A DNA stretch of 63,332 bases, taken from assembly GCA_903904885.1 (NCBI GenBank), contig CAIVED010000004.1, forward strand, positions 1 through 63,332. Direction: 5' to 3'. The number at the start of each line of letters is the position of its first letter. The stretch's first letter is position 1. This document shows positions 18,426 to 49,256 of the stretch, in pieces. The notes under the pieces were generated by a model that saw nothing but the letters and a program-made list of their open reading frames with translations, had not been told where the DNA came from and did not search any database. A program made the translations under genes and the position numbers. This stretch comes from an uncultured archaeon. Lineage in GTDB: Archaea > Nanobdellota > Nanobdellia > Woesearchaeales > CAIVOO01.

Positions 18426-18515
18426 TTGTTTTTAGAACTTACATATGAACATAACCCAAGAACCAGTAAAAGTTTTTTATTTTTAGAATAACCGCATTTT
18501 CAATTAAAGCAGGCT

Positions 18516-18529: not shown

Positions 18530-18550
18530 GGATTTTTCTTTTTGCTTTCC

Positions 18551-21655: not shown

Positions 21656-21683
21656 TTCTCGTAAATATATATGGCAATATATC

Positions 21684-21757: not shown

Positions 21758-21762
21758 AATAG

Positions 21763-29163: not shown

Positions 29164-29166
29164 AAA

Positions 29167-32178: not shown

Positions 32179-32654
32179 ACAAGAAATCACAGATTGGCCA
32201 GGTTTTTATTTATCTCATATCCACATTAGTGATAATACTCGTTCTTTACTTCGGATATAACGCAATCAGCGGGATAACCAAAAAACAGCAGGAGCTTTCA
32301 TTTGTAAAATTCCAGACATCGCTTAAGGACATGGTGTCATACACCAGCTCTGATTACGGAACAGTCAGGGTGGAGGATTTTTACGTGCCAAGCACATTTA
32401 CAGAAGTGTGCTTTGTTGACCCTCACCTTATAACAACCCGGGATTCATCACCCATACTCCAGTCATACCCCGTAATAATTGACAGCGTTGAGAGCGGGGT
32501 TCTTGCAGATGTTTTTGCGCTTCAGGCAGGGGCTCCGTTTTACATTGAAAAAATCAATGTAACCGGGGATTTTCTGTGCGTTCCGGTCACTAACGGCAAG
32601 ATAAGAATCAGGATTGAAGGCAAGGGGGATTCTGCCCAGATAAGCAGCCCTTGA
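32175..32654 (+). CDS. Pilin-like protein B
   Basis: 159 residues, paralogous to the protein at 15707: MNKKSQIGQVFIYLIST signal, hydrophobic helix ending LYFGY, then SDYGTVRV, CFVD, IIDSVESGVLADVFALQ and a terminal GKGDSAQI. The start overlaps the previous stop by four bases (ATGA). Expected to be an A24-processed minor pilin that goes with the membrane-anchored protein just upstream. Confidence 0.75.
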   Translation: MNKKSQIGQVFIYLISTLVIILVLYFGYNAISGITKKQQELSFVKFQTSLKDMVSYTSSDYGTVRVEDFYVPSTFTEVCFVDPHLITTRDSSPILQSYPVIIDSVESGVLADVFALQAGAPFYIEKINVTGDFLCVPVTNGKIRIRIEGKGDSAQISSP

Positions 32655-32656
32655 AG

Positions 32657-33748: not shown

Positions 33749-33751
33749 AAA

Positions 33752-34258
33752 ATGAAAAAATCACAGCTGAAAATCGGGGAAAGCGTGGCAGTGCTTATGA
33801 TATTCTTTGTCCTGGTAATAGTTGGAATCGTATTCTGGTCGAGGTACAGCCAGGTGCAGATAAAGTCCCAGCAGGAAACTGATTTGCTGTCCCAGGCGAT
33901 TAAAATCTCCCAGACCGTGACATTCCTGTCAGAGCTGCAGTGCTCAACCCTGGAGGTCATAAAATTCAGCTGCTTTGATGTTTACAAAATCAATGCAACG
34001 CGTTCCCTGCTGATGGAGAGCAGCGACGACGAACGGGAAAACAGGACAAGCTATTATTTTGACATTTTCGGGTTCAGCAACATAACTGTCTATTCAATAT
34101 ACCCCTCCCAGCAAAGCTGGAACATATATGATTTCACCGGCGGCAACATAACCGGCTATGTCTCAACCCAGGTGCCGGTTTCAATACTTGATCCCATTAA
34201 CAACCAGTTTTCATTCGGCTATGTCAATGTTGCAGTTTACACGAGGAAGGCGGGATGA
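33752..34258 (+). CDS. Pilin-like protein with one N-terminal helix (168 aa)
   Basis: MKKSQLKIGESVAVLMIFFVLVIVGIVFW: a KKSQ-type start, a Glu at +6, then a 20-residue helix, then a soluble domain with two Cys (about 63-74) and Asn-linked glycosylation sites. The layout is that of archaeal pilins and minor pilins. Its end overlaps the next start by four bases. The substrate or partner is unknown. Confidence 0.68.
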   Translation: MKKSQLKIGESVAVLMIFFVLVIVGIVFWSRYSQVQIKSQQETDLLSQAIKISQTVTFLSELQCSTLEVIKFSCFDVYKINATRSLLMESSDDERENRTSYYFDIFGFSNITVYSIYPSQQSWNIYDFTGGNITGYVSTQVPVSILDPINNQFSFGYVNVAVYTRKAG

Positions 34259-34779
34259 TAAAAAAGGCGCAGACAGAGATGCTTGGCATAGCCATTGTGG
34301 TGATTCTGGTTTCAATAGGGATACTTTTCATAGTCACCAACGCAATCCGAAGCTCCGGCAGCCAGTCCCAGAAAACCGATTTTTCAGAAAAGCAGCTTGC
34401 AACAAACATACTGGCTTCAATACTTTCCACTTCTTCAAAGGCTGATGATTGCCAGGGAGACAGGATAAGCACGCTCATGATTGACTGCGGCAAGGGAACC
34501 GGCAGGACCTGCCTGCTTAACGGAAATGAGGTTGATGTTTGCGAATACCTCAATGTGACCATAGATACGCTGCTTAACGCAACAATTAAAGTGTGGAACA
34601 AGAAGTACCAGTTCCTCGCATACAAGAGCCTGGCATCCGGTGTGCAGATTAACATCACAAGCAGGATTGAGCAGTGCCTCGCAGGGGATGGCACAGGCCT
34701 CCAGTATGTACAGAAAGATTCTTATTACCTGCCGCTTTACCCGGAAACAATGACTGTGGAGTTGTCGCTATGCAGCTGA
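34255..34779 (+). CDS. Pilin-like protein (174 aa)
   Basis: MIKKAQTEMLGIAIVVILVSIGILFIV is a very clear class III start (KKAQ-T-E: cut after A, Glu near +3) with a hydrophobic helix. The exodomain has Cys pairs and sequons (NVT, NAT, NIT). The short protein after it begins inside its last codons, so the two are coupled. Confidence 0.7.
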   Translation: MIKKAQTEMLGIAIVVILVSIGILFIVTNAIRSSGSQSQKTDFSEKQLATNILASILSTSSKADDCQGDRISTLMIDCGKGTGRTCLLNGNEVDVCEYLNVTIDTLLNATIKVWNKKYQFLAYKSLASGVQINITSRIEQCLAGDGTGLQYVQKDSYYLPLYPETMTVELSLCS

Positions 34780-34892
34780 AGAAAGCCCAAACATCGATAG
34801 CAAGGTACATAATGCTGGTTGCCCTGATGATAGCCGCATTTGTAATAATCTGGATTATACTTAACAACATTCTTTCGAGGACCCTTGTATGA
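34770..34892 (+). CDS. Tiny pilin-like membrane peptide (40 aa)
   Basis: A 40-codon frame from ATG 34770 overlaps the previous gene by 10 bp and the next by four. It encodes QLKKAQTSIARYIMLVALMIAAFVII and a few more residues: a KKAQ pilin-type site and one helix, with almost no exodomain. It is easy to miss because of its length, but the signal and tight spacing make it credible as a small subunit or spacer pilin. Confidence 0.6.
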   Translation: MQLKKAQTSIARYIMLVALMIAAFVIIWIILNNILSRTLV

Positions 34893-35644
34893 GAAAAAAA
34901 GCAGTGGCGGAAAGCGTAACAACTGTTGTGCTAGCTCTCGTAATCTTTGTCATACTTCTTGTATTTTCAACAGCAATCAATACCTATCTGAATGAGGTGC
35001 ACCAGCGCGAGAACTGCAAGCTCAGCATAGTTGCGGTTGAACTCGGCAAGTTTATCACAAGAGGCGTTGCATCACCAAAAATTGACTGCCCTATGCAGCA
35101 GGTAACCATTGCAAAGAAAGACCTTCCAAAAGGTGATTCTGCCAATTTTGTAAAGACAAAATTCGCCCAGGAAATGTGGGACACATGGTATGTTGCGGGC
35201 AGGGGTGAAAACAGAAAATTCCAGGATGCCTGGCAGGGAGGGCAGGTTCACTGTCTGCTCTATGCCCGAATAAATTTCAAGGACAATATCGGGCTTCAGA
35301 AAACCGATTTGGGCAGCATGACCCAATGGCTGACCACTAATAATCCGAGAGAATCCTCACAGTCTTACTTCAAATATCTCACCTATAAGGACCAGAGGGC
35401 ATTTCACATAGTTGATGCTTCTGACCCCGCAAATATAAAGGACATTGAAGAAATTGACCCAGCAAAAAATTACTATGTGCTGTATTATGCAGTAATGTGG
35501 GATTCGGGAATGGTAGGAAGGCTAAATCCCCTCCAGCAGTTTGCGATTTTGAAAGATCTGGTTGGCTCGGGGAGCATTCCCCAGGTATTTGTCGTCCAGG
35601 AGGACCAGTTCGCAAACCTGGGTTGCGACCGGCTGCTTAACTAA
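34889..35644 (+). CDS. N-terminally anchored surface protein (251 aa)
   Basis: MRKKAVAESVTTVVLALVIFVILLVF has a KKA site, a Glu and one helix. The rest is an exodomain with Cys at about 43, 67 and 112, and a closing GCDRLLN. The next gene (35646) resembles it in layout and in details (C-K-x-x-V pattern after the helix, INCP versus IDCP then x-x-I-x-K, a central W/C-x-x-Y-A block and a final LGC-(D/E)-x-L), so the two are likely paralogues in tandem. Confidence 0.68.
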   Translation: MRKKAVAESVTTVVLALVIFVILLVFSTAINTYLNEVHQRENCKLSIVAVELGKFITRGVASPKIDCPMQQVTIAKKDLPKGDSANFVKTKFAQEMWDTWYVAGRGENRKFQDAWQGGQVHCLLYARINFKDNIGLQKTDLGSMTQWLTTNNPRESSQSYFKYLTYKDQRAFHIVDASDPANIKDIEEIDPAKNYYVLYYAVMWDSGMVGRLNPLQQFAILKDLVGSGSIPQVFVVQEDQFANLGCDRLLN

Positions 35645-35645
35645 A

Positions 35646-36566
35646 ATGGACACGAAAGAAAAGGTTTTGATAGGATTCATAATCTGCATAATAGCAGCTG
35701 TGCTGATTCTTGTGATGTTTGACAAGGTAAAGACCTTCAGCTCAGAGCAGACCAGCAAGGAGATATGCAAAAGGCAGGTGCAGATTAATGCCTATTCTTC
35801 ATCATTGCAGGCAAACATAAACTGCCCCATAAATTACATCACAATAAAATCACCTCCAAACTCAGATGGCACAAAAAGGAGGCTTGCTGAGCTGATGAAT
35901 GATGTGAGGGATATTTATGACAAGGCCTGGACAGGGAGCGTGATTTTTCCTGCAAAGTCAGGCACATTCTGCGCGGTTTATGCTATTGTGGATTTCAGCC
36001 AGAAGGGGCAGTACATTGATGATTTTGACAAATTTTTGATAGATAACCGGCCCACATATTTGAGTGACCAAAGCTACATGGACTATTTCACCACAGGAAT
36101 TGCAGGCACTTCAAAGGCATTTTCTTCCAAGATAGCCCCTTCAAAAATACCAACCAGCGACAAGTACGCAATAATATTCAAGTACTCAAAGACATACCAG
36201 GACTTTGAGAGTTTCACAAACAAGATTGGGGCGTTTGCATCCGGTCAGGGTGTCGGCGGGCTTCCGGTTCCCCAGGCAGGGATAGCAGGCAAAAGCATTG
36301 TTGTGATTGGAGGCGGGATTGTTGCAGGGGTTGCAACCGCAGCTGTGCTTTACACAGCGAGCGTTCCTCTTGGAATAGTATTTTTGGGGCTTACTGCAGG
36401 AGGGATGGTTACCGGTTCGACATTGACTTCCGTAGGGATTTTAGCAGCAGACAACGCGCAAGTGCTCACGCCAAGCGTATTGCTCATAACATATAATGGC
36501 GAAAGCGAGCTGAAAGACCTTGGCTGCGAATACCTACCGGTTTCAGCAGGTACAAGACCGCAATGA
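35646..36566 (+). CDS. Paralogue of the preceding protein with extra hydrophobic region (306 aa)
   Basis: The start at ATG 35646, one base after the previous stop, gives MDTKEKVLIGFIICIIAAVLILVMF, an anchor helix without a classical class III site. Downstream motifs parallel the 34889 protein (INCPINYITIK; TFCAVYAIVDF; LGCEYL near the end). An insert at about 205-265 is Gly/Ala-rich and hydrophobic (IVVIGGGIVAGVATAAVLY; IVFLGLTAGGMVTGS), which could be two further membrane segments or a pore-like hairpin. The function is not recognised. The upstream in-frame extension from 35562 overlaps the previous gene and is rejected. Confidence 0.66.
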   Translation: MDTKEKVLIGFIICIIAAVLILVMFDKVKTFSSEQTSKEICKRQVQINAYSSSLQANINCPINYITIKSPPNSDGTKRRLAELMNDVRDIYDKAWTGSVIFPAKSGTFCAVYAIVDFSQKGQYIDDFDKFLIDNRPTYLSDQSYMDYFTTGIAGTSKAFSSKIAPSKIPTSDKYAIIFKYSKTYQDFESFTNKIGAFASGQGVGGLPVPQAGIAGKSIVVIGGGIVAGVATAAVLYTASVPLGIVFLGLTAGGMVTGSTLTSVGILAADNAQVLTPSVLLITYNGESELKDLGCEYLPVSAGTRPQ

Positions 36567-36596
36567 TTAAAAATGAAATGCAATTATAAAATCAAA

Positions 36597-36752
36597 ATGA
36601 AAAAAGCATCATTGTCCTGGGATGAATTGGGCAAATGGGTTCTTTTCCTTATTCTGTTAGTCGTGCTGATTATTGTGATTGTCCTGGTTTTCGGGGGCGC
36701 TTCAGGCATATGGGAAAGAATAAAGGAAGTGCTGAGGTTTGGGGTTTCATGA
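36597..36752 (+). CDS. Small single-helix membrane protein (51 aa)
   Basis: A 51-codon frame from ATG 36597: a short KKASLSWDELGKWV start, a helix of about 22 residues (LFLILLVVLIIVIVLVF), then GGASGIWERIKEVLRFGVS. It ends with a four-base ATGA overlap with the next gene, strong support for a real gene. It is probably a minor subunit of the same apparatus. Confidence 0.6.
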   Translation: MKKASLSWDELGKWVLFLILLVVLIIVIVLVFGGASGIWERIKEVLRFGVS

Positions 36753-38377
36753 GAAAAAAAGGGGAAGGACCAAATATTTTTGAGCCAGCTATCATGGTCA
36801 TAGTCATAGTTGTTCTTGTAATCATACTTGCCGGAGTTTTTTTGCTGCCCAAATCCGCAAGCGCAAACTTTCTCACAGACCTAAGGGACAAGTACACCTA
36901 CGGAACCCAGTGGAAGGACATGGAGGCGCTTCAGAAGCGAACAAATTATGTGCTTGACTGCGCAGGCGGCGGGGGAAATGTGGTGACAGACATACAGTAC
37001 AAGATTGACCATTTTCCTGCGGACATATCCCAGAGCATGCGCACAAGATACAGCGACCTGCTGACCGAGGCAAAGCTCAACCAGCAGTACTGCGGAGCAG
37101 TCTCTTCTTTTGAAAGCGTTCCAAATTTCGATGGGGTGCACGAAACAGAATTCAAGGATGCCCTCAGAAAAGCGAAAACAAGCATAGCCACTCTCCAGCA
37201 GACCAGGTTCCAGGCAGGGATACTTGCCAAGGAGAAGTCTGACATTATTGACGGGATTCTGAATGACTGCAAGGCTTTCAGCGGAAGCAAGAAGGAGAGT
37301 TGTGACTTTGCAAAAACAAAGCACTACTGCGTTCTCGACGGAGAAAATTGCAGGCCCACGGTTTGCTCAAAGGCATCAACAGATGAGAAATACTGCAATC
37401 TTCTTGCAGACAAGTCAAAGCTCTGCTTTTCCGGCTATGAAAGCAGGCAAACTCTGGGTTCAACATTCTCAAAAACTCCGCAGTTCTTTTATGTATTTAA
37501 TTCATGCAAGCCATGCCTGGGCATGAGCGATTGCTTTGGCTATGGGCTGAATGAAAAGGCCTGCACCTCTGACGTTTGCGGCAAGGGTGGCGGCGCATGC
37601 AGCTTCCCAAAGCTAACCCAAAACAGCCCCTGCAGGCCTGCCGGTGTTGGGGAAATATGCGCAGACCATAATCAGGACTACCAAAACTGCAAGCCTGAAA
37701 AAGGATGTTTCTGGACTTCATCAGGGCTTTGTGTTGACTGCAGCACAATCAAAAGCTGCGAGGATTACGCATCGGACAAATTAATGAAGCCATCTTCTTA
37801 CGATTTGACAACCGCGTGCGAGCCAGACATATGCGCAGGGATATCAAAAAGAGATAAACTGGGCTGCAAATTAGATCCAACATTCGCAGGCCAAAAATGC
37901 ATATCCCTAAAATGCGAAGCGGTGATATATGAATCCTCATGCAAATCCTATGACAAATGCATCTGGGATGAAAAGATAGCCGGCTACAACAAATGCGCTG
38001 AAAAAAATGCCTGTGAGAAACTGGCAAAGTCAAGCTGCGGGAAAACCCGCGGACTCAACTGTGTTTTTGTCAACACAGAGGTTTTGAGGAGTGCGCTAGA
38101 TTCTCCGCTGTTTCCCTACTCTTCCATATGGCCTATGTGCAGGGACTGCAGCCAGATAAAAAGCTGCGCTGACTACGGGACAATTGAGGTAGCCACAAGC
38201 GGATTACCAAGCTATACTCCAAAATACAAGGTTGGCGATTTCCCTTCCTGCGAAAATGATGTGTGCGGAATAGCAGGTGCAACTAAATGCAAAGTAGATG
38301 TGGAAAACAAGCCCGGCTGGGGAGGCCCTACTGTTCTTGTTGGCGAGGGCATGCGGGGTTATTGCGTGGCTGCTTAG
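36749..38377 (+). CDS. Anchored Cys-rich surface protein (542 aa)
   Basis: From ATG 36749 (overlapping the small gene) the protein has an N-terminal helix (IMVIVIVVLVIILAGVFLL), an alpha-helical stretch to about 190, then some 350 residues with at least three similar Cys modules: (D/K)C-x2-(I/M)-x2-C-x2-(Y)...C-x2-D-(V/I)-C-x(5-9)-C. Examples are CLGMSDCFGYG, CSTIKSCEDYA and CSQIKSCADYG. Related modules occur in the giant protein at 21763, so a shared disulfide-bonded repeat runs through this system. It is the last gene before a promoter and the short-pilin array. Confidence 0.72.
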   Translation: MRKKGEGPNIFEPAIMVIVIVVLVIILAGVFLLPKSASANFLTDLRDKYTYGTQWKDMEALQKRTNYVLDCAGGGGNVVTDIQYKIDHFPADISQSMRTRYSDLLTEAKLNQQYCGAVSSFESVPNFDGVHETEFKDALRKAKTSIATLQQTRFQAGILAKEKSDIIDGILNDCKAFSGSKKESCDFAKTKHYCVLDGENCRPTVCSKASTDEKYCNLLADKSKLCFSGYESRQTLGSTFSKTPQFFYVFNSCKPCLGMSDCFGYGLNEKACTSDVCGKGGGACSFPKLTQNSPCRPAGVGEICADHNQDYQNCKPEKGCFWTSSGLCVDCSTIKSCEDYASDKLMKPSSYDLTTACEPDICAGISKRDKLGCKLDPTFAGQKCISLKCEAVIYESSCKSYDKCIWDEKIAGYNKCAEKNACEKLAKSSCGKTRGLNCVFVNTEVLRSALDSPLFPYSSIWPMCRDCSQIKSCADYGTIEVATSGLPSYTPKYKVGDFPSCENDVCGIAGATKCKVDVENKPGWGGPTVLVGEGMRGYCVAA

Positions 38378-38405
38378 CAATCAAATCGCTAACATTCCCC
38401 CCGAA

Positions 38406-38457
38406 ACCTTTAAATACTCCCCTTATTTAGGAATAGTAATAAAAGCTTAAAGAGGTG
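38406..38457 (+). promoter_or_regulatory. Promoter and strong ribosome site of the short-pilin array
   Basis: A TATA-like ACCTTTAAATA (38406-38416) is followed by a GAGGTG ribosome site at 38452-38457, seven bases from ATG 38464. The gap to the previous gene is 86 bp, wide for this block, so the array probably has its own transcript and high translation. Confidence 0.55.
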
Positions 38458-38463
38458 TTAAGA

Positions 38464-38763
38464 ATGATTAAAAAGGCACAGGGAATGTCCCTAAATGTCA
38501 TTATTATTGCAGCATTGGGCCTGCTTGTTCTGGTTGTCCTTGCCATTATATTCACTGGAAGGACAGGGCTATTTGTCAAGGAATCCGACAAGTGCGAAAT
38601 TAAGTACGGCACCACAGGCAAATGCGTTGCCGCAACAACAGATTGCGGGGGAACATATGACAAGGTATTGCTTGGAGCCTGCGATTTGAGCGGAGACAAG
38701 AAGTTCAACTTCAACAATGTTGACAATGACGGATACTGCTGCGTGACTGTGGCGCCTTCTTAA
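38464..38763 (+). CDS. Short Cys-rich pilin-like protein 1 (99 aa)
   Basis: MIKKAQGMSLNVIIIAALGLLVLVVLAIIF: a KKAQ site, a conserved SLN-V-I-I-I-A helix, then a small exodomain with about five Cys ending in CCVTV. It is the first of a tandem family of five. The strong ribosome site decides ATG 38464. Confidence 0.75.
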   Translation: MIKKAQGMSLNVIIIAALGLLVLVVLAIIFTGRTGLFVKESDKCEIKYGTTGKCVAATTDCGGTYDKVLLGACDLSGDKKFNFNNVDNDGYCCVTVAPS

Positions 38764-38764
38764 A

Positions 38765-39070
38765 ATGAACAAGCGCGGGGCTGAGCTATCATTGAATGTC
38801 ATAATAATTGCGGTGATACTTATTGTTGTCCTTGTTGTGCTGGTGATAATATTCTCGGCAAAGACGAGCATATTCACACAGACAACAACCGAGACAGCAA
38901 AGCCCTTCACAGCGAAAACCTGCGATGTTCCTGGAACAGGAAGGTACTGCTCTGACAACTGCGGCTCTGATTCAGATGTTTCATCCCAGTTTACAGGGGG
39001 CCAGTTTGACTGCCTGGATAAAATAACCGGGGGAAGCAGCAAGTGCTGCTGCTGCGGCAGGTTTAAGTGA
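38765..39070 (+). CDS. Short Cys-rich pilin-like protein 2 (101 aa)
   Basis: MNKRGAELSLNVIIIAVILIVVLVVLVIIF: KRGAELSLN signal and helix, then an exodomain of about 65 residues with Cys near the end in a CCCCG cluster. It is a paralogue of its neighbours on both sides. The start is one base after the previous stop. Confidence 0.75.
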   Translation: MNKRGAELSLNVIIIAVILIVVLVVLVIIFSAKTSIFTQTTTETAKPFTAKTCDVPGTGRYCSDNCGSDSDVSSQFTGGQFDCLDKITGGSSKCCCCGRFK

Positions 39071-39072
39071 AA

Positions 39073-39348
39073 ATGAACAGGGAAGGAGCTGAGCTATCGC
39101 TGAACGTTGTTATAATCGCAATAATCCTGATAATTGTGCTGGTAGTTGTTATAATTATATTCGGTGGAAGGCTTAACATCTTCGGCAAGTCATCAACAGC
39201 CTGCCAAACCCAGAGTGGATATTGCACAGCGCCTGTTACTGCCGGCTGCACAGACTCGAGCGGATGCTGCCCTTCAGGCGAGATAAAGATACCCGGGGCA
39301 AAATGCACAACCACTCTGGAGATATGCTGCTTTAAGGCGACCACATGA
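39073..39348 (+). CDS. Short Cys-rich pilin-like protein 3 (91 aa)
   Basis: MNREGAELSLNVVIIAIILIIVLVVVIIIFGG, nearly identical in the first 20 residues to protein 2, then NIFGKSS and an exodomain with about seven Cys, ending EICCFKATT. ATG 39073 is preferred over GTG 39067. It overlaps the next gene by four bases. Confidence 0.75.
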   Translation: MNREGAELSLNVVIIAIILIIVLVVVIIIFGGRLNIFGKSSTACQTQSGYCTAPVTAGCTDSSGCCPSGEIKIPGAKCTTTLEICCFKATT

Positions 39349-39632
39349 ACAAGAAATCAATGGAGCTGTCTTTGAACACAGTTGTTGTTGCCATAATCCT
39401 TCTTATCGTGCTTATTGTGCTGATTTTCCTTTTTGTTACAAGGTCAAACATATTCGGGAAAAGCCTGGAAGGGCAGGCATGCAATGAAAGGGGAGGAAGC
39501 CCAATTTCAAGCGGTCCCTGTCCCGATGGTTATTACATGATTTACGCCAAATCAACACCGGATGCAAAGACGGCAACACCGTGCTGTGTTAAGATAGAGC
39601 TTCCGCAGGCATCTACGCAACCAAGCAAATGA
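39345..39632 (+). CDS. Short Cys-rich pilin-like protein 4 (95 aa)
   Basis: MNKKSMELSLNTVVVAIILLIVLIVLIFLF then SNIFGKSLEGQAC...: same signal and post-helix motif (NIFGKS) as protein 3. It has four Cys, the last two adjacent (PCCVKI). It overlaps both neighbours by four bases. Confidence 0.75.
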   Translation: MNKKSMELSLNTVVVAIILLIVLIVLIFLFVTRSNIFGKSLEGQACNERGGSPISSGPCPDGYYMIYAKSTPDAKTATPCCVKIELPQASTQPSK

Positions 39633-39910
39633 AAAAGAAAGCTGACGTAAACTGGGTATTGATTTCAATGGTAATTGCAGTCATAGTTCTGGCAATAACG
39701 GTTTATCTTTTCTGGAAATATTCAACCCAGTCTGCAAACCAGGCCCAGGGAATTGCCGGATGCAAGGCAAGGGGAGGCAGCTGCATGCCTGCATGCGGCG
39801 AGGGAACGATTAGCATAGGCAAATTCAACTGCAAGCAGGAAACCCAGAGTGACACAGATGTCTGCTGCATACTGGTGATATCGTCAGGAGGAGCAGCCTC
39901 CCCCACTTGA
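39629..39910 (+). CDS. Short Cys-rich pilin-like protein 5 (93 aa)
   Basis: MKKKADVNWVLISMVIAVIVLAITVYLFW: a more divergent member with the KKKA site and helix but without LSLN. The exodomain keeps the pattern GCKARGGSC...C...C...DVCCILV. It shares the Cys ending of the array. Confidence 0.7.
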   Translation: MKKKADVNWVLISMVIAVIVLAITVYLFWKYSTQSANQAQGIAGCKARGGSCMPACGEGTISIGKFNCKQETQSDTDVCCILVISSGGAASPT

Positions 39911-39912
39911 AA

Positions 39913-40806
39913 ATGCGTTCTAAAAAAGCCATAGTCTGGTCGACATTGATTGGAATAACAATTGCTTCGCTTATCCTGATAAATGTTATAGTTCCCATAC
40001 TTGCTGCAGGCTACAGGATTCTTTTTCCTGAGCCGAATTATTCCTCACTGCAGGGATTTGACAGGCTGAGCTATGCTGCAATGAATGCGCCATACAACGG
40101 CAAAATGATTGTGCCAATTGATTTGGAAAACGGGCTGAAAATAACAACAAATGCCAACGACCCGAATTGCGCGATTAATTGCCTTTGCCTGTGCAAGGCT
40201 GACGGATTTGCAAGCGGCCAAAAGCAGCCGGGATGCCTTATAAGGATGTACAAGGAAACCTGCTTTGATTCGCCGGTCAATTTTCACGGCCAGTTCTCTA
40301 CGATAACTCCCGGAGTAATGATTAACGTTGTAGCAATATTGCAGGTTTCCAGAAGCACAAGTGCGATTGACGTAACCGGAGAATATTCAGGCAAATGCTA
40401 CTTTGACAATTACGCTGATTGCGCAAAGGCAGGAGATTGCTTTGTAAAATTTGCCACAGACAAGGCCCTTATTACCGCAGGCAGCTCATACATAATTTGC
40501 ATGGCATGCACAGACAATCTGCCAAAGGGCCAGGCTTCCGGCTCAGAAACGGGAGATACCCAGAAAGTTTCCTGCGAGCGATATTCTTATCATGAGCTAA
40601 AAAGCAGCGCAGGGGCAGCAATTAGCGGAATTTTGTCATATGAAAGAACATTTTCCCTGCCTCAGAATAATCCCAATATTGCCCAGGCAAAGCAGCAGTG
40701 TGAAACAGACAACCCCTGCAAGCTAGCTGTAAAGTGCAAATGGGTTGACAGCACCAATAGCTGCGTTGAGGATACCAGCGCTGCATCACAGCCAGCCAAG
40801 CCCTAG
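39913..40806 (+). CDS. N-terminally anchored Cys-rich protein (297 aa)
   Basis: From ATG 39913: RSKKAIVWSTLIGITIASLILINVIVPIL, a KKA-type anchor helix. The exodomain has about 15 Cys, including CAINCLCLCKADGF (near 78) and CKYF-like blocks, ending with a C...C-x5-CKW-x6-C module. It ends the short-pilin transcript (82 bp and a TATA box follow). The fold is unknown; a larger cap or anchor for the five small pilins is a guess. Confidence 0.65.
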   Translation: MRSKKAIVWSTLIGITIASLILINVIVPILAAGYRILFPEPNYSSLQGFDRLSYAAMNAPYNGKMIVPIDLENGLKITTNANDPNCAINCLCLCKADGFASGQKQPGCLIRMYKETCFDSPVNFHGQFSTITPGVMINVVAILQVSRSTSAIDVTGEYSGKCYFDNYADCAKAGDCFVKFATDKALITAGSSYIICMACTDNLPKGQASGSETGDTQKVSCERYSYHELKSSAGAAISGILSYERTFSLPQNNPNIAQAKQQCETDNPCKLAVKCKWVDSTNSCVEDTSAASQPAKP

Positions 40807-40888: not shown

Positions 40889-41791
40889 ATGGAACAAGAG
40901 GAGGAAGAGTTCACACTCGGCTGGGGCCAGTGGTTTGAGCTGATATTTGCGGTTTTGGTTCTTGTGGCAGCGCTTGCCTATTCGGTTTCTGTGGGCACGG
41001 ATATGAGGATAATGAAAGAAAAGTCAGCAAGGGACATGGCGCTTACTGTTGAAACCATGGTCGGCTCTCCCGGAAGCGTGCTTTTCGGCTATGCCGATTC
41101 TTTCGGGTTCCAGTATCAGTTCAGGCCCAACAGGGTAGACGTCTACTCAAGGGATGAGCAAACCTTCAATCCAGCATCAACATATTACATTTTTCCCCAG
41201 GATTCTGAAATGCGGTTTTTGTTTCCGGCCACAATACTTGGCCCCAATGGCGGGGAAAAAACAGTCGTTTCACTGAAGAAGAATTTTGATTCATTCACAT
41301 TTGGCCAGGAGGATTTGACATTTTCTTCCTCAAGCTGCGAAAAAATCACAGTGCCCAAGAGTCCGGTTCTTATACTGCGTTCCTCTGCAGACCCGAAACT
41401 GAAAGAGCTGATAGAAAAAAACCTGATGCCTGCGCTGCGGACAATTGGCGTGGATGCAACGCCCTATGATGACCTGGGCGCGCTGAAAAGCGCATTGTCC
41501 GGGAACAAGGACACTGTTATGCTGGAGATATCAACGCTTGCAGTTGGCCAGGATGACTCAAACAAGAATACAATAAGGATTCTCGCAAACCCCGACAAAA
41601 AAGCGAGAAGGATTTCCTGCATTATCAAGAACAAGCTGCAGGAATCCAATCTGTATTCAACCTCCCTGGCAGACAGCAGCCCTGATTTTGTGACCCCCGT
41701 TTCACTGAAAATCGAAATAAGCGCGGATTTGCCATATGAGACTGTGATTGGGAAAATCGCAGACAGCCTTAAGGAGTATTTCCCAAAATGA
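40889..41791 (+). CDS. Membrane-anchored protein, possible degenerate amidase-like domain (300 aa)
   Basis: An acidic cytoplasmic start (MEQEEEEF), then a helix at about 13-34 and an exodomain of 260 residues. The last 145 residues have an order of strands and helices (VLILRS...LMPALRTIGVDATPYDD...MLEISTLAV...NTIRILANP...ARRISCIIKNKL...SLKIEIS...IGKIADSLKEYF) that reminds me of the N-acetylmuramoyl-L-alanine amidase_3 fold, but I do not see its zinc ligands, so any such domain would be inactive. It is followed by a four-base overlap and by cell-wall hydrolase genes further on. The amidase idea is weak. Confidence 0.6.
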   Translation: MEQEEEEFTLGWGQWFELIFAVLVLVAALAYSVSVGTDMRIMKEKSARDMALTVETMVGSPGSVLFGYADSFGFQYQFRPNRVDVYSRDEQTFNPASTYYIFPQDSEMRFLFPATILGPNGGEKTVVSLKKNFDSFTFGQEDLTFSSSSCEKITVPKSPVLILRSSADPKLKELIEKNLMPALRTIGVDATPYDDLGALKSALSGNKDTVMLEISTLAVGQDDSNKNTIRILANPDKKARRISCIIKNKLQESNLYSTSLADSSPDFVTPVSLKIEISADLPYETVIGKIADSLKEYFPK

Positions 41792-42309
41792 AGGGCAAAA
41801 AAGCAATAAGCACAACAGACTTTTTTCTTTGGATAGGAAAATTGCTTCTTCTGGTGATGCTTCTGATATCCATTTATTTCATTGCAAGGATTTACGAGCA
41901 GAAGGAAATAGACACCGCGGAAATAGAAGCGGGCATTTTCAGGAATTACATTCTCTATTCCCCCCATGCCATTTCCTATAGGGATGTTTATTCAGACAGA
42001 ATCTTTCCTGGCACGGTTGATGTTGCAAATTTAAACTCAGACCTGCTGGAGTCTGCTGCAAATTTCGGAAAGACAAACGACATGATTGCAGCAATAATAA
42101 CATTGTCGGATTCGCAGAAAAAGACAGTAAAGCAGGTTTATTACAATGAGAAAAGGTACAATGACTGGCTTCCCATGGCTCAGAGCACATTTCTTGGAAG
42201 GGGAGCAATTCTAAAGGCAGACAAGGAATCCTATGTTCTATATGTAGACTCTGATGGGAAGACAAAGCCGGGAATTTTGAAAACAGAGGTGCTTGTGCCA
42301 AGAACATGA
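41788..42309 (+). CDS. Anchored protein of the hydrolase operon (173 aa)
   Basis: MKGKKAISTTDFFLWIGKLLLLVMLLISIYFIARIY: one N-terminal helix, then a 130-residue exodomain without Cys. The family is unknown. It overlaps both neighbours by four bases, so it is translated with the 300-aa and 216-aa proteins, probably as membrane partners of the lytic enzyme downstream. Confidence 0.66.
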   Translation: MKGKKAISTTDFFLWIGKLLLLVMLLISIYFIARIYEQKEIDTAEIEAGIFRNYILYSPHAISYRDVYSDRIFPGTVDVANLNSDLLESAANFGKTNDMIAAIITLSDSQKKTVKQVYYNEKRYNDWLPMAQSTFLGRGAILKADKESYVLYVDSDGKTKPGILKTEVLVPRT

Positions 42310-42956
42310 GAAGGCTAAGAAAAAAAGGAACATGGACTTCAGTGATAACCGATGTTTTTGCAGTATTTGCATATTTTATAATTTTCATCATAGTTCTCTT
42401 TTTCATCTCTGACTCTGACTTGAGATCAAAAAAGACAGTAAGCACAGAGGAGTTGAAGGTTGATCTAAACATGGAACTTCTTGACGGGTTGAGGACTCCG
42501 ATAGATTCAGAGGTTCCGGATGCACGGGGATTTCCCATTCATGTAACCATGTCATTTGCAGAGTATATTGCCCAGTTTGCAGACTGCAATCCCGAAGACA
42601 AACCATCCATTGCCACGGCAGACTGGGTCCAAAGCCAGGAGCATGACTTGGAGTATGTCCTTGGGCAGATGGAGCCGTTTTTTAGCTATCTTAAGGGAAG
42701 CAGCACGTGCTTTCGTTTGGAGTATCCCAATGCAGGCCAGTGCAGCTGGCTTAAACCACTGACTGATTCAATATCAAGAAAGGTTGAGGAAAAATCAGGC
42801 GGCTGCCCGAACTTTGCAGCCGGGCTGGCTGGGGCAAGCAGTATGCAGCAGGCATCTGTAAAGTTTCCCAGCAGGCAGAAAAATATTATTACTGCCATGC
42901 TCTGGAGCGCAGGTCTCCCATCATCGCAGGCTTCTGCGCCTGCAGCGGGGCCATGA
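42306..42956 (+). CDS. Anchored protein of the hydrolase operon (216 aa)
   Basis: MRRLRKKGTWTSVITDVFAVFAYFIIFIIVLFFI: a basic start and one helix, then an exodomain with four Cys (one at about 98, the others at about 141-172). The end is Ala/Ser/Pro-rich. I do not recognise the family. The gap to the lytic transglycosylase gene is 9 bp. Confidence 0.66.
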   Translation: MRRLRKKGTWTSVITDVFAVFAYFIIFIIVLFFISDSDLRSKKTVSTEELKVDLNMELLDGLRTPIDSEVPDARGFPIHVTMSFAEYIAQFADCNPEDKPSIATADWVQSQEHDLEYVLGQMEPFFSYLKGSSTCFRLEYPNAGQCSWLKPLTDSISRKVEEKSGGCPNFAAGLAGASSMQQASVKFPSRQKNIITAMLWSAGLPSSQASAPAAGP

Positions 42957-42965
42957 TAAAATAAA

Positions 42966-44282
42966 ATGAAACTGCTGAAAAACAAAAAATCAATGTACTT
43001 TTTGACTATGGTCAGCATATTCCTGATAATCTCGCTGATAGCGCTGCTTTATTTCATCAACAAGAACAAGTCGCTAAGCGAGCAGCAGGGTTATATCGGA
43101 GTGAAGTCAAACAAAATAATCCAGTCTTACCAGACAGGGGAGGCGACCCTTTTCTACATTGACCAGTCTGCCAAGTATGCTGCAGAGACCGCATATTTCA
43201 TGGCAGCTTTCAACGGTGCCATGGCAAGCTGCGGGGATTATTATAATTTCAAGGTCTGGGATTTGGAAGACCCGAACTGCGTTCCCATGGACAGCAACAA
43301 CATGCCAAGCGAGCATCTCAAGAATGCGTTTGAAAATGCGATGAATAAGGCGCTGAATGAGTATTTCTCAGTTCAGCAGGATGCTTCAATTCCCAATAAT
43401 TATGACCTCAATATATTTGAGCGGGCCAATCCTTCAAACCCTGCCGGCGAAAAGCAGCTGGTTTTTGTCGGCCAGGCCCAGACGCCAATCCAGTTTGTGG
43501 TGGAAAAATACCAGCCGGGTGCCCAGGCACCTGTTTCCGCAACAGGAGGCCAGGCGCCTGCAACATACAACCCAGTCAACCTGCCGCTGCCGCCTGCAGG
43601 CAAAACAGACAGGGATCTTATGGTCTATATAAAGCAAAATTATGGTCCCATCATAAGCAAGTATGCCCAGATGTATGGGTTTCCTGCCAGCTATGAGCCG
43701 CTATTTGCAGGCATGATTGCAACAGAGTCAAGCGGAAACACCTATGCACTTGGCTTTGACTACGGGTCTATAGGCCTAACACAGTTTATTGATTCTACTG
43801 CCAGAAGCGAGCAGTTTTCTTCAATATTTGAAGGCAAGATTACCAGCTGCAACTGCGGCACAAGGGTTGGGAGATCTTGCCCGACCAGATGGAGTGCGGG
43901 GTCCTGGGTGCCGTGCAGTCCGAGCAATGATTTAAGATTTGACCCTGATAAAAACATCCAGGGCGGCATAAAATATGTGCATGACAATTATCTGGATATT
44001 AAAAAAATGATGGAAGCAAAAGTCGGTGCAGGGAATGCGAACGAGGAAACGCTTATCCTTTCAGCGATAATGGGCCATAACCGTGGGCTTAACGGAATTG
44101 AGGGGGATATAAGGCAGGCAGGAATAAGCGCAGCCAATGCTCCAAGCGGTTGGAAAGTTGTTTCGGTTACCGGGACCTCAAGCTACGGAAGGCAGTATCC
44201 GCTCAAAGTTTTAAAATATGCAGCGGCCTACAAGGACCTTTCAGGAGCAGAGGATACTGACCTTGGGGAGGGGGGCGTATGA
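42966..44282 (+). CDS. Membrane-anchored lytic transglycosylase-like protein (438 aa)
   Basis: One N-terminal helix (about 10-30), a helical region to 140, a Pro/Ala linker, then an SLT-type lysozyme fold from about 215. The catalytic Glu is most likely Glu254 in the segment FAGMIATESSGN, followed by YGSIGLTQF (267-274), the Gly-Leu-x-Q motif of lytic transglycosylases. A Cys-rich insert (CNCGTRVGRSC) sits between it and a later HNRG motif. Such enzymes cut the glycan of bacterial murein. Archaea lack murein, so the target may be a bacterial neighbour, or the fold has been reused on the cell's own glycans. It overlaps the next hydrolase gene by four bases. Confidence 0.82.
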   Translation: MKLLKNKKSMYFLTMVSIFLIISLIALLYFINKNKSLSEQQGYIGVKSNKIIQSYQTGEATLFYIDQSAKYAAETAYFMAAFNGAMASCGDYYNFKVWDLEDPNCVPMDSNNMPSEHLKNAFENAMNKALNEYFSVQQDASIPNNYDLNIFERANPSNPAGEKQLVFVGQAQTPIQFVVEKYQPGAQAPVSATGGQAPATYNPVNLPLPPAGKTDRDLMVYIKQNYGPIISKYAQMYGFPASYEPLFAGMIATESSGNTYALGFDYGSIGLTQFIDSTARSEQFSSIFEGKITSCNCGTRVGRSCPTRWSAGSWVPCSPSNDLRFDPDKNIQGGIKYVHDNYLDIKKMMEAKVGAGNANEETLILSAIMGHNRGLNGIEGDIRQAGISAANAPSGWKVVSVTGTSSYGRQYPLKVLKYAAAYKDLSGAEDTDLGEGGV

Positions 44283-47200
44283 ACCGGAAGATCTTGATGG
44301 CTGCAATCTGCGCATTTTTGTTTTTGGCAATTATTAATTGCGCACCTGTTGCAAAAGCTGCTGATGCTCCCGCTGCCACTGCAGGCCAGCAGCCGCCCTG
44401 CGGAACAGGGCCAATGGCTCTTATGTACCATACTATAACTGATTCCCCAAGCGGCCAGTGGGAACTGGCAACAGCAACCTTTGAAGCGCAGATGAAATTT
44501 CTCAAGGACAATAACTGCAATGTTGTTGATGCGGATACCTATGCAAGCATAATAAAAAGCGGGGCAAAAACTCCTGCGATATTACTAAGCTTTGACGACC
44601 GTACCCGTGCTTCCCATTACACCGTCGCGTTTCCGATATTGAAGAAATATGGGTTAAGGGCAATATTCTTTGTCCAGTCATCCCAAAAAGGGATTACAAC
44701 AGCGCAGCTGAAAGAAATGATAAGCGCGGGAATGGTTATGGGTTCCCACACAATAACTCATCCAACATCCGCAGGCCAGTGGTCCGGCAAGGAATATGAG
44801 CTAAAGCAGTCAAAGGATGATCTTGAGAAAGAGTTGGGTGTTTCAATAAAATATCTTGCATGGCCTGGAAATTATTACAATTCTGCATTGGTTCAAAAAG
44901 CCAAGGATGCAGGTTATGAAGGGCTGTTTGCAGTGGCGAAGGAGGAGAACAACAAGCAGTTGATGGTTCCGACAACATCCCAGTATGAAATGTTTAGAAG
45001 GGAAATTGGAAATGGCTGCGCTGTGGATATGTTCAAACTTGCAGTTTCTAATAATCTGTGCTGTATCCCAAAGCCGGATGTCAAGATGGACATAAGCCAG
45101 TGCGTTCCCTACAATGCGCAGGCAGTGCAGCCAACTTCTGCATCAAATGCGCCTCCCTCACTTGGCTATCAGGATTGCGCTCCCGGCGCAGTCACAGGTG
45201 GGGGAGCATTGAATCTTCAGGTTGACAGTGAAGGGCTTGTTGAAATTCCCCAGATTGACGGCAAAAGCCTTTGCGTAGACGATGCAGCTAGCCGTCCTGG
45301 AGGCTGCCGCCTTAAGAAGTCTGCTGCAGAGGCAATATATTCACTTTACAAGATGTTCAAGGACAACGGATGCACATTGCAGATAAGCTCTGCCTATAGG
45401 TCTCAGGCGCTGCAGGCAACAATTTTTGCAGCCCTGGGCAGTGGAAAGGCCTGCGGTCCGGGGAAGGATAACTTTGCACACTGCCCCCATGTTTCAGGCG
45501 GGGCCATAGATATAATGACCGCAAGTTGCCCTGACTATGAAAAGAGGATGAAGCTTGCCTGCCAGGCAGGATGGATGAATTATAATAATGAAGGTTGGCA
45601 TTTTGAATTCGGCACAACCAGCTGGAAAGGGGCTGTATCACAGCAGCACTGCCAGTTCCCGTTCGTCGCAACAGCGGGCTATGGTGGGGGAGCATATGCT
45701 GGCCACCAGTCTGTGAAATTTAATGAGCTTGCCCAGCAGCCTAATTTCAATCCCCAGTCTGCAGGAGCGCCTTCATCGGTTGCCGCCCAATCAATCAGCA
45801 TTAAGGAGCTGCCAACTGTAACTGCGGGAGGGAGCACAATAAATAATGTAAAAATAATTGAAATTGACCCAAAATATTATGACATCAAAACAATGTCTGC
45901 AAAGACAATCATCCAGACTTTTGGCGGAGCCAGCTGCGACAACTGCAAAATAAACATTGTAGATGCCAAAAAGAAATATCCTTCACTGAATATTGTTGCA
46001 GGGGTAAATGCGGGGTTCTTTGACAATGCTGCAGACAAGTCGTTTGTCAGCACTCTTAACCCTGGAACGGGTGCTGCAGAAAAGTTAATTACCGGTTATC
46101 TTGCCCTGGGGGATGCTGTTGATTACAGTGCCTATGGCTATCCTGTAAATGATTACGTTGAAAATGGGAAGCTCATCAAGGGCAAGCCGGACGACAAGCT
46201 GGGCATGTATTTTGTTGTTGACAACGGAGCAGCAAAAATAATCAAAAAATCAGATTTCTCGTTCAGCCCTTCAATAACTTCCGCTGTAAGCGGCTCTTCC
46301 TCCGCAGAGGGCGAGACCTCAAGAACAATGGCATGCATAGAGAAGGACGGCAAAATAAAGCTGGTTACTGCAAAAAGTGCAAGCGCATCGGCACTTAAGG
46401 ATTATCTCACTTCATCCGAAAACTGCGGCCAGACCATCAATCTTGATGGAGGCGGCTCAACAATGATTTACTATAATGATGGCGCAAAAAAAGTTGAGGA
46501 TGCAGGCTCAGACTCTGGAGGAAGGGCAGTTGCAAATTTCCTTGTTGCAGTTCCAAAAGCAGGAATGGGCGGGGTCGCATCGCTGACGTCTCCTGTGCCA
46601 TGCCCGCCGGCTTCTGTTTACAATTCCCAGGGCGCATGGTATGCAACCTATCTTCTGCCTGGCTCATTTTCAACTGTTCTCAACCAGAATCTGCAGCCAT
46701 ATACGCAGGTCCAGGACACAATGGTTTCAACAGCAAAGGAGCCTTCCTGCGGAGTTGACTGCTTTGACCAGAAAACAAACGACCCCGCATTGGGGAATAA
46801 GGATTATACATTTTACTACAAGCAGAATGCAAAGGTTAAGGACGGCAAGGAGAGCGACTGGAGCAAATACTGCGAAAGCCCTGACGAGGCATTCTTCAGC
46901 GACTTTGCAGAGTTTTTTGACAACTGCATCGGGGCAGCCGGGCAGAACTGCAACTGTAAAATTACCCCTGATCCAAAGGCGCTTGAAAAGTCATCAATTA
47001 AATTCAGCAAGATGTCAGGCACAAGAACAGACATTTCCCTTACGGGCTATGACAAAACATTCCAGATGTTCACAAAGGACTATTCAGTTGCTTTCCCGTC
47101 GGAAATAAAAAATGATGGGGGAATTAGGCTTGCTTACTCTGCAACTGATGCGTATAACCCCGGGGCTTCTGTTAAGATGAGCACAATATACCTGAACAAG

Positions 47201-48223
47201 GAGGGCAAAAAAATCAGTTTCTCAAGCTCGCCGTTGGGGGGAGACTGCAATGCAGAAAGCCAGGTAATAAAAGTTTGCGCAGTCAGCAAGAGCATAACCC
47301 AGAAAATGGACAATCCTGTCACAGGCAAATTCGAGGAAATGCCGCTTACCTTCAGGTTTGCATTCACTCCGCCGAACACTCCGCCCCCTGATGTGGCGGG
47401 AGTTGCTGTATCAGATTTAAAATACGCAAGCGGCGCCGTTGTTCTCAGCTGGTACAAGAGCACGGTGAGTAATGTCGAGAAATACGACATCTACCAGCAG
47501 GCCAGCGATTTCAAGGGAAAGAAATCAGACGAAGTGAAGAAAACTGCAGCCCCTGCAACCGTTGAAATAAAAAATGAAAAGGACGTGCAGTCAGTTGACT
47601 GGGTGCCGAAATGCAAGCAGAAGGGAACAAAGCAGTGCGATTTTGAGCTTGAGGCGAAGTCTCTCCCGGATGGGGCAGCATCGCAGAGAATTCCAATGGC
47701 TGCGGGGACGCTAATCTATGAAGCGGGCACCGGAAAATATTATTACATAACTGCCTTGGCAGACAAAACCCCAATGAATTTCGGGGTAACTGCTGAAAAC
47801 AAAAAAGGAATCCAAAGCGCAGCATTTGTGGAAACTCCGGCAGGGATTTCAATTGATGATATCCCCCCCGGCTATTCTGACTATTCCGGGGCAATGGTTA
47901 GCGGGAATACAAGAACATTTGAAATGCCCCAAGCAAACATAGATGGGACTGTTCTTGGGCCTTTCATGAAACTTTACTATTATATTGTTGAATCATGCCC
48001 TTCAGGCAACAGGGCAATAGCGCAGTACCCTTCAGATGCGGGAAAACCCCTTTCACTAACCCAGCAGGCAATCCCTTCAATCTCCGGGGGCTGTTCGTAT
48101 AAGCTTATTGTCCAGAAAGATGTATCAAGCTTGACAATGGTTCAGGCATATTCACCATTTGTAAACAATGTGGACTTCCAGGGAACAAAGGACTTGGAAG
48201 TTATCAACTATCTACTCCAGTAG
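44279..48223 (+). CDS. Secreted deacetylase, M15 peptidase and phosphodiester glycosidase fusion (1314 aa)
   Basis: A signal peptide (residues 1-28) is followed by a NodB polysaccharide deacetylase domain (about 45-260: SFDDR at 104-108, zinc histidines in HTITH at 157-161). An M15/VanY-type D-Ala-D-Ala carboxypeptidase comes next (about 315-450: SAYRSQ at 371-376, zinc ligands His404, Asp411 and His441 in GWHFEF). A phosphodiester glycosidase (NAGPA-like) domain follows at about 510-760: VNAGFFDN at 576-583, NLDGGGSTM at 721-729. The rest (760-1314) is beta-rich with a fibronectin-like stretch. All three active sites look intact. In bacteria these act on peptidoglycan or wall polymers. It has no anchor, so it is probably released or held by the neighbouring membrane proteins. 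Confidence 0.85.
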   Translation: MNRKILMAAICAFLFLAIINCAPVAKAADAPAATAGQQPPCGTGPMALMYHTITDSPSGQWELATATFEAQMKFLKDNNCNVVDADTYASIIKSGAKTPAILLSFDDRTRASHYTVAFPILKKYGLRAIFFVQSSQKGITTAQLKEMISAGMVMGSHTITHPTSAGQWSGKEYELKQSKDDLEKELGVSIKYLAWPGNYYNSALVQKAKDAGYEGLFAVAKEENNKQLMVPTTSQYEMFRREIGNGCAVDMFKLAVSNNLCCIPKPDVKMDISQCVPYNAQAVQPTSASNAPPSLGYQDCAPGAVTGGGALNLQVDSEGLVEIPQIDGKSLCVDDAASRPGGCRLKKSAAEAIYSLYKMFKDNGCTLQISSAYRSQALQATIFAALGSGKACGPGKDNFAHCPHVSGGAIDIMTASCPDYEKRMKLACQAGWMNYNNEGWHFEFGTTSWKGAVSQQHCQFPFVATAGYGGGAYAGHQSVKFNELAQQPNFNPQSAGAPSSVAAQSISIKELPTVTAGGSTINNVKIIEIDPKYYDIKTMSAKTIIQTFGGASCDNCKINIVDAKKKYPSLNIVAGVNAGFFDNAADKSFVSTLNPGTGAAEKLITGYLALGDAVDYSAYGYPVNDYVENGKLIKGKPDDKLGMYFVVDNGAAKIIKKSDFSFSPSITSAVSGSSSAEGETSRTMACIEKDGKIKLVTAKSASASALKDYLTSSENCGQTINLDGGGSTMIYYNDGAKKVEDAGSDSGGRAVANFLVAVPKAGMGGVASLTSPVPCPPASVYNSQGAWYATYLLPGSFSTVLNQNLQPYTQVQDTMVSTAKEPSCGVDCFDQKTNDPALGNKDYTFYYKQNAKVKDGKESDWSKYCESPDEAFFSDFAEFFDNCIGAAGQNCNCKITPDPKALEKSSIKFSKMSGTRTDISLTGYDKTFQMFTKDYSVAFPSEIKNDGGIRLAYSATDAYNPGASVKMSTIYLNKEGKKISFSSSPLGGDCNAESQVIKVCAVSKSITQKMDNPVTGKFEEMPLTFRFAFTPPNTPPPDVAGVAVSDLKYASGAVVLSWYKSTVSNVEKYDIYQQASDFKGKKSDEVKKTAAPATVEIKNEKDVQSVDWVPKCKQKGTKQCDFELEAKSLPDGAASQRIPMAAGTLIYEAGTGKYYYITALADKTPMNFGVTAENKKGIQSAAFVETPAGISIDDIPPGYSDYSGAMVSGNTRTFEMPQANIDGTVLGPFMKLYYYIVESCPSGNRAIAQYPSDAGKPLSLTQQAIPSISGGCSYKLIVQKDVSSLTMVQAYSPFVNNVDFQGTKDLEVINYLLQ

Positions 48224-48260: not shown

Positions 48261-49256
48261 ATGCTGAATTTGCCCTACGATAAAATTGTGGAAATCATAA
48301 AAGCAAAATCAGGGCTTTCTGAAGACGATATAAACGACAGGGTAAAGGACAAGATAAAGCAGCTTTCTGACCTCGTTTCAAGGGAGGGCGCTGCCCATAT
48401 TGTTGCCAACCAGCTTGGGGTTTCGCTGATGAACATCGCAAAAAAGCTGAAGATTTGCGACATCAGGGAAGGAATGAGAAATATTGAGGTTGTTGGCAAG
48501 GTATCAAAGGTTTTTGACATGAGGGAGTTCACTGTCGGAGAGCGTGAGGGAAAGGTTGGCTCCATGTTTATCGGGGATGAAACCGGCTCCATAAGGGTAA
48601 CCATGTGGGGCGAGATGGCTGAGAATGTAAAAAAGCTGAAAGAGGGGGATGTTGTAAAGGTAAAAGAAGCATACACAAAGATGAACAACAGCTCCCCTGA
48701 AATCCACCTGAATGAAAAAAGCATTCTTCTCATAAATCCAGAGGGTGAAACAATTTCGGATGTAAAAACAAATCTATATTCGCGGAAATACCTTGCTGAG
48801 GCAAAGGAGGGAGAAAAGGTTGAGGTGCTTGGAACAATTGTCCAGATTTTTGAGCCAAGATACTTTGAACTGTGCCCTGACTGCATGAAAAGGGCAAGGC
48901 AGAAGGAAGACGGATTTTTCTGTGAGATACACGGAAAGGTTGAGGCGCCGAGGGTGTCCTATGTATTCAACCTCGTTCTTGACGACGGCACAGACAACAT
49001 AAGGGTTGTTCTTTACAAGCAGCAGGCAGAGGAGCTTTTTGGCAAGGCTGAGCAGGAGATTGTTTCTGCAAGGGGCGACGGGCAGAAGATTGAGGCGCTG
49101 AAAAGCGAAGTATTCGGGAAAACGATAAAAATAGCGGGAAGGATACAGGCAAATCCTCTTTTTGAGAGGCAGGAGCTGGTTGCACAGAAGGTTTCAGGGG
49201 AAATTAATCCGGAAGAGGAAACCAAAAGGGTTGAAGAAGCAATTGTAGTGAACTAG
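48261..49256 (+). CDS. RPA-like single-stranded DNA-binding protein
   Basis: 331 residues with two OB folds: the first at about 70-160 (IEVVGKVSKVFDMREF...GSMFIGDETGSIRVTMWG), typical of archaeal replication protein A, and the second at about 180-310 (VEVLGTIVQIFEPRYFELCPDC...). A zinc knuckle of the form C-x2-C-x11-C-x2-H (CPDC...CEIH) lies inside the second OB fold. The N-terminal 60 residues are helical. It binds ssDNA in replication and repair, and the nearby topoisomerase VI and radB genes fit this setting. Confidence 0.85.
   Translation: MLNLPYDKIVEIIKAKSGLSEDDINDRVKDKIKQLSDLVSREGAAHIVANQLGVSLMNIAKKLKICDIREGMRNIEVVGKVSKVFDMREFTVGEREGKVGSMFIGDETGSIRVTMWGEMAENVKKLKEGDVVKVKEAYTKMNNSSPEIHLNEKSILLINPEGETISDVKTNLYSRKYLAEAKEGEKVEVLGTIVQIFEPRYFELCPDCMKRARQKEDGFFCEIHGKVEAPRVSYVFNLVLDDGTDNIRVVLYKQQAEELFGKAEQEIVSARGDGQKIEALKSEVFGKTIKIAGRIQANPLFERQELVAQKVSGEINPEEETKRVEEAIVVN

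Follow-up and report, generated by a model that had tools for sequence, protein, structure and literature searches.

A pilin-like gene cassette with an exchangeable slot for peptidoglycan-cleaving domains in archaea of the order Woesearchaeales

What would an archaeon do with a set of enzymes for the bacterial cell wall? The question is raised by two neighbouring genes of an uncultured member of the Woesearchaeales, lying in a stretch of 63,332 nucleotides that was analysed as a whole and is called here the window. That this DNA comes from an archaeon and not from a bacterium, as a preliminary description had held, was borne out by the topoisomerase VI B encoded in the window (E 5e-213), and the genome to which it belongs has an estimated completeness of 98.7% and a contamination of 2.2%. 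The accompanying idea that its owner makes no murein also held up. Single-family searches, by which this genome was examined, found the Mur ligase middle domain (PF08245) neither there nor in its two family members, and most of the other relatives gave zero or one match, where a murein pathway would need four; these single matches are probably FolC-like. Throughout the analysis ORFs were called mechanically, the genomes compared were mostly MAGs, and part of the order was sampled.

The two genes overlap by 4 bases and occupy what we will call the slot, with the following features:

42966..44282, plus strand: slot gene A, 438 aa, with a membrane-anchored N-terminal domain, SLTN (aa 2-160), and an SLT lytic transglycosylase domain (aa 225-342)
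43725..43730, plus strand: SLT catalytic motif, codons of E254-S255, conserved in 18 relatives and aligned with the QES of Slt70
44279..48223, plus strand: slot gene B, 1314 aa, secreted protein with three enzyme domains and a C-terminal module; Sec-type signal peptide by sequence
44420..44926, plus strand: NodB polysaccharide deacetylase domain (aa 48-216), Polysacc_deac_1 E 9.2e-20, PgaB/Pda-like
45305..45634, plus strand: VanY/M15 D,D-carboxypeptidase domain (aa 343-452), Pfam VanY E 2.6e-7
45992..46546, plus strand: NAGPA-like phosphodiester glycosidase domain (aa 572-756), Pfam NAGPA E 6.8e-11
46646..48100, plus strand: conserved C-terminal module, CTD (aa 790-1274), an N-terminal part with no known match followed by FN3-like beta domains; a local profile of it is found in 87 loci

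All four Pfam matches (SLT, Polysacc_deac_1, VanY and NAGPA) lie above the curated cut-offs. The first gene had been described as a membrane-anchored SLT-type lytic transglycosylase, and rightly so, given its ORF, its match to PF01464 (E 1.1e-8, 35.1 bits against a curated cut-off of 21.3) and the presence of the catalytic motif, since in alignment E254-S255 coincides with the catalytic QES of Slt70 and MltC. Among 18 relatives S255 is invariant and E254 nearly so, and G270 and Q273 of the GLxQ motif are likewise invariant or nearly invariant. A profile of the 18 SLT-slot proteins reached Slt70 and MltC with E values of 1e-18 to 1e-20, EtgA and phage gp16 being also among its matches; single-sequence searches of the PDB with the SLT, VanY and NAGPA parts gave no matches, so that family profiles were required. 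The AF2 model of the protein shows an MltC/MltE-like domain and a long N-terminal helix (residues 7-83), in models of medium confidence (72 and 68) that did not resolve the fold of SLTN. Proteins with an SLT domain are common in the order, where they occur in 138 of 241 genomes.

For the second gene, the three catalytic domains announced for its 1314-aa product are indeed intact, as judged from the Pfam matches and from the motifs in the translation, which include SFDD and HTITH, the metal motifs of NodB (CE4), and NLDGGG of NAGPA. The VanY residues PH..SG.A.D...E.WH are kept, apart from conservative changes, in all five VanY domains found at this site in the order, with the metal site and catalytic glutamate (H75, D82, E109 and H112) invariant. 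The proposal that the domains act on murein stood in part: SLT and VanY belong to wall-active families, but neither the PgaB-like NodB nor NAGPA is specific for murein, and these two are therefore accessory at best. The CTD gave weak FN3 matches by sequence and by fold, the fold search returning generic FN3 domains at low TM-scores, and neither LysM nor PG_binding_1 was detected by Pfam in the two proteins, which carry the FN3-like CTD instead.

A search for the same fusion of three enzymes in other genomes had been suggested as a check, and did not find it again: it occurs in none of 98 relatives, a scan of GTDB gave bacterial relatives of the NodB domain only (mainly from Veillonellaceae, at ~30% identity), and a scan of viral contigs gave none. 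This last scan lent no support either to a phage or viral origin, which was discarded. In the two other family members, the nearest relatives, the downstream protein consists of the C-terminal part only (502 and 529 aa) and has no enzymes, although one of them (G001) keeps the SLT gene directly upstream of it. To judge from these sequences, the fusion is a local elaboration, inserted into a conserved CTD protein, and not the system itself.

If the fusion is local, what is conserved? The comparison of relatives pointed to the genes around it:

40889..41791, plus strand: cassette gene 1, P40889, single-TM protein of ~300 aa with homologues in 85 of the searched loci
41788..42309, plus strand: cassette gene 2, P41788, pilin-like, present by profile in 232 of 371 genomes from the phylum
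42306..42956, plus strand: cassette gene 3, P42306, pilin-like, 216 aa, conserved in position, with one TM segment and a charged N-terminus
48261..49256, plus strand: RPA-like OB-fold gene, the end marker of the cassette, present in 214 of 241 genomes and adjoining the cassette in most

Because it is present in so many genomes of the order, the RPA-like gene, which is probably not part of the device, was taken as an anchor, and up to ~12 kb upstream of it were examined in 100 more genomes. In this way 82 loci of the order were found in which P40889, P41788 and P42306 are followed, ahead of RPA, by a protein starting with SLTN (an anchored N-terminal domain of ~150 aa), most of them also with the CTD. 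The last cassette gene thus has a recurrent layout of anchored pilin-like N-domain, variable enzyme and conserved C-terminal module, either as one ORF or split: SLTN and a substantial CTD share one ORF in 35 cases, whereas in 14 the CTD has an ORF to itself, as in the window. The P41788 profile reaches beyond its own order into others of the class. In 20 loci examined from sister orders the cassette is present and its last gene is mostly bare (140-300 aa), with one example of Amidase_2. About one cassette in three within the order, and nearly every one examined in sister orders, has no recognisable enzyme, so the core function of the apparatus is something other than wall cutting.

What fills the slot within the order is, by Pfam, SLT (24 cases), M23 (13), NlpC/P60 (6), VanY (5), Amidase_2 (4), 3D (3) and phage lysozyme (2), together with single cases of Amidase_3, M15_4, GH25, CHAP, glucosaminidase and a VgrG3-like lysozyme; NAGPA, GDSL, metallophosphatase and NodB domains accompany them and are not murein-specific. 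By a conservative count, which draws on individual Pfam scans, on A2 totals in the case of SLT and VanY, and on an NlpC motif at a single locus (L121), at least 43 of the 82 loci bear a peptidoglycan-cleaving domain, and none of 94 control proteins from the same neighbourhoods does. The corresponding Fisher test (43/95 versus 0/94) gives p ~5e-16, a value that is indicative only, as the loci are related by descent. The exchange can be followed within a single genus (g39), whose four genomes carry NlpC plus SLT (G183), NlpC plus a VgrG3-type lysozyme (G106), Amidase_2 (G141) and M23 (G038). The first two share 71-75% identity in the RPA anchor, 64% in SLTN, 52% in the NlpC part, 49% in the CTD and 53% in the tail, while the second enzyme is replaced; on these alignments, they are two species of one genus in which SLT was recently exchanged for a VgrG3-type lysozyme within a fixed frame. 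An origin of the enzymes in contaminating bacterial DNA was rejected, since in dozens of genomes they are fused with this archaeal anchor and module or lie next to them, with archaeal RPA genes on their flank.

The substrate shared by these unrelated families is peptidoglycan, which points to bacterial murein as the target, for one peptidoglycan-cutting chemistry replaces another at the same site in cells with no sign of peptidoglycan synthesis. The bacterial wall target suggested at the outset has thereby gained considerable support, now from many unrelated families at one operon position across the order. Altogether, we consider it probable that the two genes of the window are the working end of a pilus-like archaeal apparatus that is conserved throughout the class and bears exchangeable wall-cutters, with murein cut on contact with a bacterium. 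The conserved core would be formed by P40889, P41788, P42306 and SLTN, small single-TM proteins that probably make up a tip complex of the minor-pilin type. In the order, the last of them would bear the exchangeable peptidoglycan-cleaving domain followed by the FN3-containing module, in one or two polypeptides, and upon bacterial contact the slot enzyme would cut murein locally, with passage, attachment, killing, feeding or an exchange of DNA or protein as possible outcomes. The slot enzyme of the window is SLT, and the partner module would have gained the deacetylase, the D,D-carboxypeptidase and the NAGPA enzyme, by which polymers of the wall would be trimmed or stripped. What the sequences support directly is the gene order, the domains, the conservation of catalytic residues, the exchange of domains and the absence of murein ligases, and we infer the assembly of an extracellular filament, the position at its tip, the bacterial contact and what comes of it. 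Display of the enzyme on a pilus-like surface apparatus that cuts bacterial murein on contact is the most likely arrangement, though the tri-enzyme protein, with its Sec-type signal, could instead be freely secreted.

The same enzymes might serve scavenging, that is, surface-tethered digestion of dead bacterial wall debris to free sugars and amino acids, with neither a contact device nor a living target. Extracellular carbohydrate degradation has been reported for Woesearchaeota (PMC9723730), and many accessory hydrolases (NAGPA, GDSL, metallophosphatase, deacetylase) lie alongside. Nevertheless, the enzymes occupy one fixed site of a pilin cassette, fused to an anchored pilin-like domain, rather than catabolic or transporter clusters, and a slot usually holds one or two of them and no degradative set, which makes this explanation unlikely. 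A still less probable one takes the cell's own envelope or a biofilm glycan as the target, whose cleavage would allow the assembly of a pilus or secretion machine. In bacteria, dedicated transglycosylases serve this purpose for machines of both kinds, EtgA and phage gp16 appear among the profile matches, and the NodB domain is PgaB-like; however, there are no murein ligases in the window's genome or its family, and the exchanged amidases, endopeptidases, carboxypeptidases and muramidases fit only a polymer that contains peptide bonds as well as MurNAc-GlcNAc bonds. Moreover, cassettes lacking any enzyme are common, so assembly would proceed without one. Finally, pseudomurein of methanogen partners is a very improbable target in place of bacterial murein, because this polymer has neither the beta-1,4 MurNAc bond that SLT and lysozymes cleave nor D-Ala termini, and no pseudomurein endopeptidase family was found among the slot domains by Pfam. 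In its favour stands the link between Woesearchaeota and methanogens, made in literature cited by PMC9723730.

The preferred reading, a pilus-like apparatus that cuts bacterial murein on contact, depends on the carrier being a pilus of some kind, and here the remainder of the operon comes in:

7493..8557, minus strand: gene for an A24-type prepilin peptidase-like protein, transcribed divergently from the operon (Peptidase_A24 E 2.7e-5, just below the curated cut-off; weak Arc_PepC match)
8639..40806, plus strand: upstream part of the operon, encoding giant Cys-rich secreted proteins and many short single-TM pilin-like proteins, on one strand and with short gaps
8639-15700, 21763-29163 and 29167-32178, plus strand: the giant Cys-rich secreted proteins of this upstream part

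The genes had been placed in one operon with pilin-like anchors, which agrees with what we find upstream, small proteins having charged N-termini that resemble class III signals and one TM helix; in most of them K/R-[GAS] precedes the hydrophobic helix. SLTN and the neighbouring cassette proteins likewise start with a short charged stretch and one hydrophobic helix. By a simple motif, class-III-like N-termini occur in 59 of 82 SLTN proteins and in 177 of 932 background ORFs, among which there are other pilins as well. Several of the upstream genes are syntenic in other families (L060, L063, L066 and L067). Pilus motor proteins, T2SSE/PilB3 and T2SSF, were found among the neighbouring proteins in some relatives: one (G090) has an ATPase homologue inside the region, and in G001 the SLT and CTD genes adjoin a T2SSE ATPase cluster whose counterpart in the window's genome is on contig C21, this genome having three T2SSE ATPases, all on contigs other than the window's. 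Homology to known pilins or pilus tips was detected for none of SLTN, P41788 and CTD, and the P41788 and SLTN profiles had no PDB match; as a known pilin is not matched in sequence, the pilus tip is proposed here rather than observed.

Parts of this picture were already in the literature. Large murein transglycosylases were published for Pacearchaeota and Woesearchaeota by Castelle et al. 2021 (PMC8204110), who, in the part of the paper available, deal with the same lineages and with extracellular SLT-type proteins proposed to act on bacterial walls. These proteins probably overlap with the slot SLT family, but that part describes the transglycosylase alone and mentions neither an operon or a pilin cassette nor an anchoring domain, a C-terminal module or enzyme exchange. 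A vampiristic lifestyle of Woesearchaeota was proposed by Vigneron 2022 (PMC9723730), also with GH23 transglycosylases for attack on bacteria, as single genes plus tlyC and with no apparatus, whereas here we find a pilin-linked cassette. That archaeal peptidoglycan hydrolases kill bacteria is known from Woldo/Danwoldo of Halogranum (PLoS Biol 2025, PMC12352652), in work that shares with ours the bacterial murein as substrate and the patchy, exchangeable domain architectures, and that noted Nanoarchaeota as rich in them. Those hydrolases had been selected for combining a catalytic with a wall-binding domain, and the ones tested are secreted proteins, whereas the enzyme described here is joined to a pilin-like anchor and keeps a fixed place in the operon. 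Among other machines, the type VI secretion spike VgrG3, with its C-terminal muramidase, and phage tail lysozymes place an enzyme on the penetrating end of a contact device, and may work in a similar way; one slot member bears a VgrG3-type domain itself, although neither T6SS genes nor those of a phage tail were recognised and the carrier is pilin-like. The minor-pilin tip complexes of type IV pilus and type II secretion systems are a possible parallel, in view of the class-III-like N-termini (by a simple motif), the four small adjacent pilin-like genes, the prepilin peptidase-like gene (a weak match) and the T2SSE ATPases in the genome. Unlike those tips, the cassette has no detectable homology to known minor pilins, and its filament is a prediction. 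A pilin-linked version of peptidoglycan-cutting enzymes in DPANN was not found in the literature searched. Murein transglycosylases in Woesearchaeota and Pacearchaeota were already known; the pilin-linked exchangeable slot appears to be new.

These data unite the isolated records of murein hydrolases in archaea in a single system that can be tested. All cultured DPANN archaea are reported on archaeal hosts, according to PMC11291902, and an order-wide slot with exchangeable cutters of the bacterial wall on a surface apparatus suggests that many of the widespread, uncultured Woesearchaeota touch bacteria. The slot names genes for tagging or assay and predicts which genomes are without the capacity. 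As a bolder and more tentative generalization, which we would not yet call probable, DPANN archaea may have a class-wide contact device, a four-subunit pilin tip complex whose terminal subunit is a plug-in site for peptidoglycan cutters, replaced as bacterial targets change; built on a pilus, it would be the archaeal equivalent of the lysozymes on phage tails and of evolved VgrG spikes.

Some minor observations were made along the way. The window's genome has a second SLT protein (~690 aa, G000:C34, L065:8602-10686) directly 3' of a pilin-like gene, with a similar pair of pilin-like gene and secreted protein just upstream, as well as an M23 peptidase outside the operon (G000:C25:5335-5631, L220, a 174-aa frame). 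Another conserved locus (L068:9254-12379, L069:7849-10143, L205/L210/L211/L219) encodes large proteins that have no obvious signal peptide and adjoin lipoprotein genes; in two genomes SLT is found at this type of locus, and pairs resembling it lie between SLTN and RPA in some sister-order genomes, with no SLT domain detected there. In secreted proteins of the order an (I/T)TG motif recurs directly behind the N-terminal hydrophobic helix (at the N-termini of the CTD proteins in L060, L066, L147, L153, L169 and L051) and is a possible processing or anchoring signal. Two giant Cys-rich proteins stand at the operon head, 8639-15700 (2353 aa, with a weak match to a carbohydrate-binding domain) and 21763-29163 (2466 aa), and are possibly adhesins or stalks. 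A LAGLIDADG-like endonuclease sequence, noticed by eye, occupies 56305-56994, downstream of a HIT-family-like gene. At the other end of the window, 1236-7492 holds a cluster of radical-SAM-like proteins with two small partner genes (6841-7068 and 7049-7492), three genes of which are syntenic in another family (L057:3265-5547); it is possibly a peptide-modification system.
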